Shown here one piece after another: positions 256-6,089 of a DNA stretch of 6,089 bases. The stretch lies in contig JAJXZK010000098.1 of NCBI GenBank assembly GCA_021780095.1, forward strand, positions 1 through 6,089, read 5' to 3'. Position 1 is the first letter of the stretch. Each line of letters begins with the position of its first letter. Both the position numbers and the translations under genes were made by a program. Source of the DNA: Acidobacteriota bacterium (GTDB lineage: Bacteria; Acidobacteriota; Terriglobia; Terriglobales; Acidobacteriaceae). The notes under the pieces were generated by a model. The model ran no database searches. It was given only the letters and a program-made list of their open reading frames with translations, and was not told the DNA's origin.

Positions 256-522
256 ATGGCACATAAAAAAGGATTAGGCAGTTCCCGGAACGGACGCGAT
301 TCGAATTCGCAGCGTCTGGGAGTGAAGGCATTTGGCGGCGAAGTTGTGACGGGTGGTTCCATTATCGTGCGTCAGCGCGGCACCCGCCTCAAGCCAGGAT
401 TGAACGTAGGCATCGGCAGCGACGACACCCTGTATGCCAAGATCGACGGGCGCGTACGTTTTGTGGATCGCGGGCGCACAGGCCGCTTCGTCGCCATCGA
501 CCCCCTCACCGCGGAAGCGTAA
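256..522 (+). CDS. rpmA: 50S ribosomal protein L27
   Basis: This complete gene encodes 88 residues, normal for L27 (about 85-95). It begins [20 protein letters not shown] and continues with [21 protein letters not shown] and [14 protein letters not shown], the conserved L27 blocks. L27 is a large-subunit protein whose flexible N-terminus reaches the peptidyl transferase centre. The protein starts directly at MAHKK, without the N-terminal extension that Firmicutes cleave off. The start is set by AAGGA at 244-248, 7 bases before ATG. Two small differences from E. coli L27 are visible: KKGLGSS in place of KKAGGST near the N-terminus, and an acidic DPLTAEA tail. A strong terminator begins 53 bases after the stop, so obgE, which often follows rpmA, is not part of this transcript. 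Confidence 0.97.
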
Positions 523-633: not shown

Positions 634-1533
634 TTAGCTCGCGATCGGTCCCGGCGGACTGACTGCCCGCTGCGGACGACCATTGGGGCCCATCACATTT
701 TCGACCAGGTCAAACACATCAGTCATGAAGGAAGGCGGATAGCTGACTGCAACCTGCCCCGCTGGATTGCCCAAGGTCTGGGCGACATCATTCCAACGCA
801 TCAATGGCGAGGTTACAGGCATTGTAACCAGGCGACGCGCCGGCTCCGGCTGCAGGAAGTAGCCTGCCCAGAGGGCGATCGCTCCCAGGTAAACGACCTC
901 ATGGACTATGTTTGTAGCGCTTGCAAGGTTCGGCTGATTAGCGAAGAATGCTGAAGTAACTAGATCGCCGACCGCCATCAGGCCGAAACCAAATGTCACC
1001 CCGAAGATCCGGCTGCGGAATGGTACCCCCAATGTATTGGAAGCGAAGGCCAGGAAGGTCAACATGCAGAGGGCGAGCACACTCTGAGACCGCATCAAGA
1101 CCTGAGCTGAAGCCAAAAGAAGGCTCATGCCGCTGGTGTGCGGGGTCATGCCGGAGGCAAAAGCCAGAATCACAGACACCGTGATGGCCCAGAAGAAGAT
1201 CGGCTGACCTAGTTTTTGCACTCCAGGGATGGAACGGACTGCGTGGCGGAACATCTCATGCAGCACGCGGAGAATCAGTATCGCGCTGACGCCGAAAGAG
1301 ACCCAATATACGTAGAAATACACGTAGTAGGCATGCACGCCGCTGATGAGGTGCAGACCGTTTAATGAAGCATCTACAAATTGGATTGTCTGTGTGACAG
1401 CGCCGAAAACTAATAGCTGCCAGAACGCTGGATAGATTCTGCTCTTCTGTGCCTTGTAGACGCACACCAGCGCCACGGTAAGGAAAAGGGCTTCGAGAAA
1501 CGTAGGGAGAGCTATATGTAACCAGACGGACAT
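634..1533 (-). CDS. Seven-transmembrane protein of unknown function
   Basis: The protein has 299 residues and I cannot assign a function. Seven hydrophobic segments are visible at about residues 7-26, 35-53, 69-93, 110-128, 148-170, 174-197 and 209-228, followed by a soluble tail (229-299). Positive charges cluster in the loops after helices 1 (KAQKSR), 3 (RVLHEMFRHAVR...QK), 5 (FRSR) and 7 (ARR). The positive-inside rule therefore predicts N-terminus outside and C-terminus inside. Helix 3 is rich in aromatics (YYVYFYVYWVSF). From memory, similar proteins with a 'YFYVYW' helix and a tail containing a tryptophan-asparagine motif recur in Acidobacteriota genomes, mostly annotated as hypothetical. 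No kinase, transporter or enzyme motif is visible. The start is supported by GGAG (minus strand) 8 bases before ATG at 1533. It lies 99 bases downstream of two small secreted-peptide genes on the same strand and may share their transcript. Confidence 0.85.
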   Translation of the reverse strand: MSVWLHIALPTFLEALFLTVALVCVYKAQKSRIYPAFWQLLVFGAVTQTIQFVDASLNGLHLISGVHAYYVYFYVYWVSFGVSAILILRVLHEMFRHAVRSIPGVQKLGQPIFFWAITVSVILAFASGMTPHTSGMSLLLASAQVLMRSQSVLALCMLTFLAFASNTLGVPFRSRIFGVTFGFGLMAVGDLVTSAFFANQPNLASATNIVHEVVYLGAIALWAGYFLQPEPARRLVTMPVTSPLMRWNDVAQTLGNPAGQVAVSYPPSFMTDVFDLVENVMGPNGRPQRAVSPPGPIAS

Positions 1534-1632
1534 GGGGTTCGCTCCAAGTGAGCCTGAAGAATACCGCAGGCGAAGCCACCCCGCAACAATAAAATTGCGT
1601 TTGTCCCAAATAGGGATTACCTTGGTTTCGAG

Positions 1633-1809
1633 TTACTTATTGAATCCGCAAGCTTTCCCAGGCTCGCACATCGGTACCGGACATACACTATTGCTCGCCA
1701 CCATGGTGGCGTTCGGTGTGGTTGCGGCGGATTTGGAGGCCAGCATATGATCGGCGGCGAATCCGGTAATCAGCATTCCGAGAACGAGGGCTCGAACGGC
1801 GATTTTCAT
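1633..1809 (-). CDS. Small secreted or membrane-anchored Cys-motif protein, paralogue A
   Basis: The gene encodes 58 residues from ATG at 1809-1807 to TAA at 1635-1633. AAGGA lies 8 bases upstream, in AAAAGGATCACCATT. The N-terminus MKIAVR is basic. A hydrophobic stretch follows at about residues 7-19, so it resembles a signal peptide or single membrane anchor. The best small-residue cleavage site is near Gly16-Phe17-Ala18, but it is not strong. The rest is Ser/Thr/Ala-rich and ends SVCPVPMCEPGKACGFNK, with cysteines at 43, 48 and 54. Its neighbour at 1843-2019 is 46/58 identical in protein while carrying many synonymous codon changes, which is strong evidence that both are translated. I do not recognise the family. 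Only 33 bases separate it from the upstream paralogue. No catalytic residues are apparent; a role as a secreted peptide, signal or small toxin is speculation. Confidence 0.85.
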   Translation of the reverse strand: MKIAVRALVLGMLITGFAADHMLASKSAATTPNATMVASNSVCPVPMCEPGKACGFNK

Positions 1810-1842
1810 AATGGTGATCCTTTTGTAGCACCTTATTTTCTG

Positions 1843-2019
1843 TTACTGGTTGAATCCACAAAGAGTTCCCGGTTCACACATAGGCACCGGCGATGCGCTG
1901 TTGCTCACTACCATGGTGGTAGCTGGGGTCGTTGCGATAGACTTGGAGGCCAACATGTGGTCGGCAGCGAAGCCAGTAATCAGCATTCCGAGAACGAGGA
2001 CGCGGACTGCAGCGTTCAT
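1843..2019 (-). CDS. Small secreted or membrane-anchored Cys-motif protein, paralogue B
   Basis: The gene encodes 58 residues from ATG at 2019-2017 to TAA at 1845-1843. AAAGGA lies 9 bases upstream. It starts MNAAVR, has the same hydrophobic segment (residues 7-19), and ends SASPVPMCEPGTLCGFNQ. It has exactly the same length as the paralogue at 1633-1809, with no indels. The differences are at residues 2, 3, 7, 28, 33, 34, 38, 42, 43, 52, 53 and 58. Residues 8-27 are identical in both despite eight synonymous codon changes. It has only two cysteines (48 and 54); the third position, 43, is serine. It is the first gene of the minus-strand block and lies about 60 bases downstream of a candidate promoter. 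Family and function are unknown to me. Confidence 0.85.
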   Translation of the reverse strand: MNAAVRVLVLGMLITGFAADHMLASKSIATTPATTMVVSNSASPVPMCEPGTLCGFNQ

Positions 2020-2060: not shown

Positions 2061-2090
2061 TTGAGGTCGGTTGACATTCCCGAGTATACT
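2061..2090 (+). promoter_or_regulatory. Candidate divergent promoter toward gyrB
   Basis: TTGAGG (2061-2066) and TATACT (2085-2090) are spaced by 18 bases on the + strand. The -10 lies inside the palindrome AGTATACT (2083-2090), the same eight bases used by the opposing candidate promoter. A + transcript from here would carry a leader of about 470 bases before gyrB, unusually long, so the true gyrB promoter may be closer. Confidence 0.3.
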
Positions 2091-2097
2091 GATTGGA

Positions 2098-2110
<13 letters not shown>
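2083..2110 (-). promoter_or_regulatory. Candidate promoter for the small-peptide / membrane-protein block
   Basis: On the minus strand, TGGACT (2110-2105) and TATACT (2088-2083) form a sigma-70-like -35/-10 pair with a 16-base spacer. TATACT matches the TATAAT consensus at 5/6 and TGGACT matches TTGACA at 4/6. Transcription would start near 2076 and give a leader of about 57 bases before ATG at 2019. The surrounding DNA is clearly AT-richer than the flanking genes. This is consensus matching only. Confidence 0.4.
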
Positions 2111-5210
<3,100 letters not shown>

Positions 5211-5484: not shown

Positions 5485-6089
5485 TCAATTCGGCCGGGAG
5501 CGACGCGAGGACCATTCTGCGAGCGGTCGGATCACCCGCCGTAGCAAGCTTGAGTTCGCCCGGCCTGGACTTGAGTCGGTTGCCCTGGCGTTTTCGATAA
5601 CAGGAATTTCCAGCGCGGACACGGAGCGATCCGGATTGACGGAGAGTTCTCTGAGCAGCGCCACAAATCGTCGGCTCAACGCGGCCATGCCCGGCCCATC
5701 AAACAGGTCAGTGCAATATTCAAAGGAACCGGAAATGCCGGTGGTGCTTTCGGTTAGCTGCAGCGTCAAATCAAATCTCGCGGTCCCAGGCTTTGTGTCT
5801 ATTTGAATCAAGCCAAGAGGCTTCTCTCCCTCCTCAGAGTCAAAACCAAACATCACCTGAAAGAAGGGAGACCGCAGCGATCTCAAGTCGATTTTCGAAG
5901 TGCGAACGAGCTCCTGGAACGGTAGATCGCTGTTCTCGTAGGCTTCCAGAGCCGTGGTGCGCACGCGTTGTAGAACCTCACGGAAACTTGGCTCGCCGCT
6001 CAGGTCACAACGAAATACGATCATGTTCACGAACAAGCCGATGATGGATTCTGTTTCGACGTGCTTGCGCAGCGTGCTTGGGGAGCCTA
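5485..6089 (-). CDS. Non-ribosomal peptide synthetase condensation domain, C-terminal half (5' end outside window, probably 3'-truncated)
   Basis: The frame enters from the right edge and stops at 5487-5485, giving 200 visible residues. IIGLFVNMIVFR matches condensation motif C5 (IGxFVNT), ENSDLPFQELV matches C6, and LRSLRSPFFQVMFGF matches C7. GTARFDLTLQLTE and GSFEYCTDLFD are also standard for this domain, which joins two carrier-protein-bound substrates with a peptide bond. The active-site HHxxxDG would lie upstream, outside the window. Homology continues to SVSALEIPV (about 5597). The last 35 or so residues match nothing expected: no adenylation domain, carrier protein or thioesterase follows. 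With an IS5-type remnant about 90 bases further on, the likeliest reading is an NRPS gene cut off here and no longer functional. A genuine protein ending in a condensation domain is possible. It runs opposite to gyrB. Confidence 0.85.
   Translation of the reverse strand, partial: GSPSTLRKHVETESIIGLFVNMIVFRCDLSGEPSFREVLQRVRTTALEAYENSDLPFQELVRTSKIDLRSLRSPFFQVMFGFDSEEGEKPLGLIQIDTKPGTARFDLTLQLTESTTGISGSFEYCTDLFDGPGMAALSRRFVALLRELSVNPDRSVSALEIPVIENARATDSSPGRANSSLLRRVIRPLAEWSSRRSRPN

Follow-up and report, generated by a model that had tools for sequence, protein, structure and literature searches.

Two tandem genes for small secreted-type peptides and the gene for a seven-transmembrane (7TM) protein downstream of them form a peptide/membrane-protein module that appears not to have been described before. 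This was proposed by an earlier, sequence-only reading of the same DNA and is now strongly supported by the linkage of the genes across genomes and by the lack of a known family for either partner. The genes lie in a window of 6,089 nucleotides (the whole stretch analysed) from an Acidobacteriota bacterium of the order Terriglobales (contig JAJXZK010000098.1), where all three open reading frames (ORFs) were found at the positions given by that reading, on the minus strand and with 99 bases between peptide 2 and the 299-residue 7TM gene. Judged from sequence, we put at about even the chance that the module consists of a secreted two-cysteine peptide and a dedicated seven-helix receptor. A bolder version is offered tentatively and as the less probable of the two: a peptide hormone and a stand-alone receptor shaped like a G protein-coupled receptor (GPCR), signaling via its own cytoplasmic tail, with both partners belonging to undescribed families that are old and widespread (about half of 298 genomes).

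The linkage was followed in these 298 genomes, sampled from the window's own order. With diverse profiles, a 7TM match was found in 260 genomes at E ≤ 1e-20 and in 147 at E ≤ 1e-60, and a peptide match (E ≤ 0.01) was present in 139 of the 147 genomes with a strong 7TM match versus 32 of the 151 others (Fisher p ~3e-42). The sequence-only reading had held that peptide homologues located mostly away from the 7TM family would speak against a module. This is not the case, as 149 of the 150 best peptide matches (weaker ones lying outside this count) are found at most 2.5 kb upstream of a 7TM gene on the same strand, and the sole unlinked match is 39 bases from a contig end. A first peptide profile matched 74 of the 298 genomes and placed 113 of its 121 matches at most 2.5 kb upstream of a listed 7TM gene on the same strand; among the eight remaining, two (G241, G299) are linked once weaker 7TM matches are included, three are at contig ends (G007, and G139 twice) and three weak ones (G032, G148, G224) are unexplained. 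A scan of genome contigs gave eight peptide loci, and in a phylum sample 30 of 297 genomes matched, all of them already members of the order sample.

The regular expression P.P.C...C found a peptide upstream of the 7TM gene in 53 of 60 fetched loci versus two matches in 1,466,787 strand-bases of the same loci, and three of the seven loci that it missed start within ~660 bases of a contig end. Another fifteen loci, for the most part missed by the regular expression or holding weak 7TM relatives, were inspected by eye. A peptide was seen in the usual place at L150, L151, L154, L157, L158, L159, L163 and L164, and at L162 a peptide start was followed by N; no convincing peptide was seen at L152, L153, L156 and L160, nor at L161, which is at a contig end.

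Peptide 1 matched 93 proteins, the window's own two included, and the 299-residue protein matched 171 (both at E ≤ 1e-3), and the named relatives listed for both are from Acidobacteriaceae or Acidobacteriota. Tandem peptide copies inside arrays have a ratio of nonsynonymous to synonymous substitution rates (dN/dS) of ~0.11 (79 pairs, related genomes), and with these numbers of matches the ORFs are more than chance. Values of dN/dS between genomes (0.72 for the whole peptide, 0.93 with the signal left out) were set aside, as the peptides compared were of equal length but not aligned by codon. In 30 aligned relatives, picked by us from the 93 and not by motif, the N-terminus is nearly fixed (MKxAVRALVLGMLITGFAADHMLASK), P44, P46, C48 and P50 do not vary, and conservation of C54 is 90% or more. 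The two motif prolines and the two cysteines are likewise constant in 56 diverse peptides, most of which were selected with the PxPxC...C motif, so the invariance there is no further evidence. Each array in the 60 fetched loci holds one to six peptide genes, and the distance from motif to stop varies. Peptides without PxPxC...C occur, with LxVPxC at L163 and no PxP at L164; at L155, upstream of a weak 7TM relative, a peptide in the usual place (MKALLRSS...PPMMVR) has no C-terminal cysteine pair and is possibly a divergent or degenerate form. Neither window peptide belongs to a Pfam or NCBIfam family above the curated cut-off, and the 56 relatives gave only weak matches to Pfam, the commonest and best being DUF6520 (E 0.0082).

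The seven helices that the sequence-only reading had counted in the 299-residue protein are borne out by AlphaFold, which gave seven long helices and two short ones in the tail. Counts of lysine and arginine predict an N-out/C-in topology, and the cytoplasmic loops and proximal tail are more conserved than the outer loops (2.52 versus 1.30 bits per position, p = 6e-11). The protein stops ~70 residues past helix 7, without a histidine kinase domain. Two models show a GPCR-like arrangement of the seven helices, a structural match that is not statistically significant. The window protein has no Pfam or NCBIfam family above cut-off, four relatives have none in NCBIfam, and 44 diverse relatives gave only weak Pfam matches (best E 0.0024); no kinase, GPCR, transporter or protease family was among the Pfam and NCBIfam matches of the protein and its relatives. 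Sequence searches of the Protein Data Bank stayed at chance level (kinases E ≥ 0.011, an opioid receptor chain E 0.74), and PADLOC, run on five proteins, found no known anti-phage defence system, its only match being to a candidate model (E 0.013). Six loosely searched genomes have one full 7TM protein each, plus one 68-residue fragment among them, and some genomes show two strong 7TM matches in the larger 298-genome search. A domain fusion, considered for a weak match in a 610-residue frame, was rejected; the frame reads by eye as an unrelated long membrane protein. At L113, L116 and L117, a second, shorter protein of 265-279 residues, by eye also a multi-helix membrane protein, lies 3' of the module 7TM gene on the same strand.

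Secreted-type ORFs also occur upstream of some distant 7TM paralogues that lack the tail. The one at L168 (396-1983, minus strand; region partly N) has five tandem repeats of ~15 residues (NMPVFPTPPAVKTA) and resembles a multi-peptide precursor, and another is found at L167/L169 (one genome). No upstream peptide was seen at L166/L170 (one locus), L171 and L172, and none that convinced at L177. Because the sites are mixed, a wider superfamily rule of a peptide upstream of every tail-less 7TM gene was rejected.

Contact between the partners was approached through co-variation in 31 loci of one clade, with near-duplicates removed. Distances between peptide cores followed those between the outer halves of the 7TM proteins (partial r 0.33, permutation p = 0.0005, with inner half and distal tail as controls); the corresponding values were 0.13 (p = 0.13) for core and inner half, -0.16 (p = 0.90) for core and distal tail, and -0.10 (p = 0.83) for signal peptide and outer half. 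Over 52 loci, core and outer half given the inner half gave 0.28 (p = 0.002). What weighs against binding at the outer face is that core and inner half given the outer half also correlate in these 52 loci (0.21, p = 0.004), and the specificity for the outer face is thus clear only among closer relatives.

Topology, the difference in conservation between inside and outside, and co-variation make a ligand with its sensor the best of the roles proposed by the sequence-only reading, with export and accessory-subunit roles still standing beside it. The one to six peptide genes versus one full 7TM gene suggest a ligand-like dosage. In the mechanism that we propose, the promoter elements found upstream of the array would be regulated and would drive the tandem genes for small Sec-type precursors, which would then be exported. 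After signal cleavage, the mature peptide would carry a C-terminal two-cysteine loop, usually preceded by PxPx and probably closed by a disulfide. The peptide may bind the outer face of the adjoining 7TM protein, in keeping with the co-variation, and binding could be relayed via the conserved cytoplasmic loops and the tail with its RWN motif to a partner.

The tight linkage would also fit a 7TM protein that is a dedicated maturation partner and exports, processes or quality-controls the peptides, and in the clade of the window the peptides show unusual conservation at the N-terminus, as for a leader read by such a partner. We regard this as unlikely, given that no catalytic residue pattern was recognised by eye among the near-invariant 7TM columns, that neither a transporter nor a protease family was matched, and that signal-peptide distances do not follow the outer face; moreover, a Sec-type signal requires no dedicated exporter. 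Next, and also of low probability, is the idea that the peptides are periplasmic accessory subunits or redox/metal switches, where the cysteine pair senses the state of the envelope and gates the 7TM protein. The conservation of the cysteine pair fits this idea, co-variation at the outer face suits any direct contact, and the peptide promoter has a conserved palindrome and is separate from the 7TM promoter (see below). One to six peptide genes versus usually one 7TM gene are nevertheless a poor fit to a fixed stoichiometry, and the peptide at L155 lacks the C-terminal pair altogether.

Bacteriocin loci commonly combine small secreted cysteine-containing peptides with an adjacent membrane protein, and a bacteriocin with its immunity protein was therefore weighed as well. 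It is highly improbable for a module that is found order-wide beside housekeeping genes, with purifying selection in its arrays (dN/dS ~0.1), with its most conserved 7TM part in the cytoplasm and with no maturation gene among the neighbours scanned. Neighbour clusters, identified from one scanned representative each, comprise a convergent downstream gene for S1 (28 loci), an upstream gene for IF3 (18 loci) and a divergent upstream gyrB (15 loci, as in the window). No regulator, kinase, response regulator or maturation enzyme was among 10 scanned neighbour proteins from nine loci. The setting, with S1, IF3 and gyrB as neighbours, is one of housekeeping genes and suggests that the module has been inherited vertically in Terriglobales.

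The peptide arrays have upstream elements of their own. A TTGGACTTA-like promoter element was found 5' of the arrays in 28 of 53 loci (0.3 expected), and the palindrome GTTAC-N4-GTAAC, with up to two mismatches, in 45 of 53 (5.2 expected from shuffles). The distance from the palindrome to the following -35-like element is 37 bases in 28 loci, 36 in eight, 35 in two and 38 in one, no such element being seen within the searched range in six of the 45 palindrome loci, and this fixed spacing suggests an activator site. The window's own promoter is a variant missed by the family promoter pattern; read in a shifted register, it has 9 of 12 matches. Palindrome and promoter combined as one pattern occurred at seven places in seven of 12 genomes, every one at the module locus; a reversed control pattern gave nine matches in the same genomes, and the combined-pattern count alone is not strong. 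Upstream of the arrays, a further motif, GTC[CT]AG[AC]GAA, was seen in 19 of 53 loci (0.1 expected from shuffles) and is partly complementary to the TTGGAC -35 element.

A second promoter pattern, TTGnnn-N16-18-TAnnnT, is present in 42 of 47 intergenic regions between peptide and 7TM gene (4.7 expected from shuffles); in most cases, 19-33 bases separate its end from the start of the 7TM gene. Its spacer is predicted to pair with the 7TM ribosome-binding site, and in the 41 loci with both features the hairpin has a mean z of -2.6, 28 of them having z < -1.5 and 33 having at least six of nine site positions paired; in the window, z is -2.25 and five of nine positions are paired, including GGAG itself. 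The ribosome-binding site was paired in 51 of 60 7TM genes versus 104 of 271 other ORFs (200 residues or longer) from the same loci (Fisher p 2e-11), the promoter pattern was present at 40 of 60 versus 20 of 271 (Fisher p 6e-22), and mean z was -2.42 versus -0.11. The control ORFs of this comparison come from mechanical calling and may include false ones, and a rule was used to pick the 7TM starts, some of them probably wrongly.

The partner strand lies upstream of the predicted 7TM transcript start in all 33 paired loci, and in the window the left arm is not included in RNA begun at the gene's own promoter. As this RNA lacks the partner strand, it is predicted to be translated more easily than RNA reading through from the peptides. 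The short RNA folds weakly (0 to -7.8 kcal/mol versus -7.7 to -36.7 for the long form); nonetheless, the simplest form of the hairpin idea is weakened by the finding that only nine of 41 short RNAs have two or fewer of nine site positions paired. The 33 paired loci comprise 31 distinct Shine-Dalgarno windows and 31 distinct partners, a variety that is no independent test because the loci were pre-selected as paired. A repressor operator at the 7TM promoter, with the hairpin as a DNA palindrome around the -10 element, was rejected, as arms that differ between loci fit RNA pairing better. A single operon for the three genes was likewise rejected as the default in view of the promoter pattern and the paired ribosome-binding site, so that separate transcripts, which the sequence-only reading had set against its single transcript, are in part what the predictions indicate. 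This suggests, at the level of sequence, that expression of the 7TM gene does not depend on that of the peptides: the candidate receptor would be kept at its own level by the internal promoter, and the hairpin, whose sequence features are conserved, is predicted to lower translation from peptide read-through RNA. Although small proline-rich ORFs of secreted type that precede a gene whose ribosome-binding site is paired resemble SecM-type arrest leaders that unfold such a hairpin, this role is most improbable, since the window hairpin begins ~50 bases past the peptide stop (1633 versus 1582), beyond a stalled ribosome's reach, a promoter pattern intervenes in most loci, and up to six copies with variable motif-to-stop distances occur.

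The gene order in the window is rpmA, the 299-residue gene, peptide 2, peptide 1, gyrB and a condensation-domain fragment.

Table 1. Positions and strands of the features of the 6,089-nucleotide window.
Feature	Position	Strand	Remarks
Peptide 1, 58 residues	1843..2019	-	Sec-type N-terminus (by eye); C-terminal PVPMCEPGTLCGFNQ; basis: ORF, relatives, alignments
Peptide 2, 58-residue paralogue	1633..1809	-	C-terminal PVPMCEPGKACGFNK; 79% identical to peptide 1
Seven-helix (7TM) protein, 299 residues	634..1533	-	predicted N-out/C-in; conserved cytoplasmic tail with SPLMRWNDVAQTLGNP
Palindrome GTTACCTCGGTCAC	2148..2161	-	likely regulator site 5' of the peptide promoter; differs from GTTAC-N4-GTAAC at one position
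Peptide-operon promoter	2083..2111	-	ATGGAC-N17-TATACT; 36 bases from palindrome
Predicted own promoter of 7TM gene	1558..1586	-	TTGCGG-N17-TATTCT
Predicted hairpin	1534..1582	-	7TM ribosome-binding site (GGAG, 1545-1542) paired with promoter spacer
rpmA	256-522	+	
gyrB	2496-5210	+	
Condensation domain (nonribosomal peptide synthetase type), C-terminal part	5485-6036	-	cut by window end

The single terminator that the sequence-only reading had placed after the three genes has a 13-bp inverted repeat at 576-605 in its favour; its T-run is short and it is absent from the terminator scan. A megablast search against plasmids gave no match. Rfam, applied to the window and four loci, found nothing at the module and, elsewhere, two tRNAs and an Acido-Lenti-1 RNA (RF01687), the latter near one module locus (L097:12658-12702).

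Several known systems invite comparison. Rap receptors are cytosolic and their peptides need re-import. According to PMC11343458, the RRNPPA systems of Bacillota (Rap-Phr) pair secreted propeptides with a receptor, and several pheromones per propeptide occur. Like the RRNPPA systems as portrayed there, the module pairs secreted-type propeptides with a candidate receptor; unlike in Rap-Phr, the partner is a seven-helix membrane protein, each peptide copy is a gene of its own and a cysteine pair is conserved in the peptide. In Agr and ComX-ComP, a peptide is paired with a multi-helix membrane receptor that is a histidine kinase, with a modifying enzyme and a response regulator encoded alongside. 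The module shares the pairing of a peptide with a multi-helix membrane protein, whereas its 7TM protein has no kinase family match, and rpmA and gyrB flank the module in the window. The likeness to the fungal class D GPCR Ste2 and its alpha-factor is in helix arrangement only, with a structural match that is not significant, and unlike Ste2 the module protein has neither a GPCR family match by sequence nor a known G protein partner. In the phage T4 lysozyme gene e, a promoter lies inside a hairpin, so that the ribosome-binding site is free only in RNA started there; this is an analogy to the module in expression logic only, as the genes are unrelated. Among the matches listed in the PubMed Central literature, with subscription papers and preprints outside its scope, there was neither a description of this peptide/7TM pair nor of any acidobacterial peptide signaling pair.

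Acidobacteria are among the commonest soil bacteria, and the module provides one defined candidate each for ligand and receptor, both testable in cultured strains such as Terriglobus roseus, which has a 7TM protein of this family (P0231). The conserved separate expression of peptide and 7TM genes is a further testable element of the design. If the signaling role is true, the 7TM protein would be a bacterial membrane peptide receptor other than a histidine kinase, and the module has the look of a hormone paired with its receptor, in a form for which bacteria have so far provided no described example.
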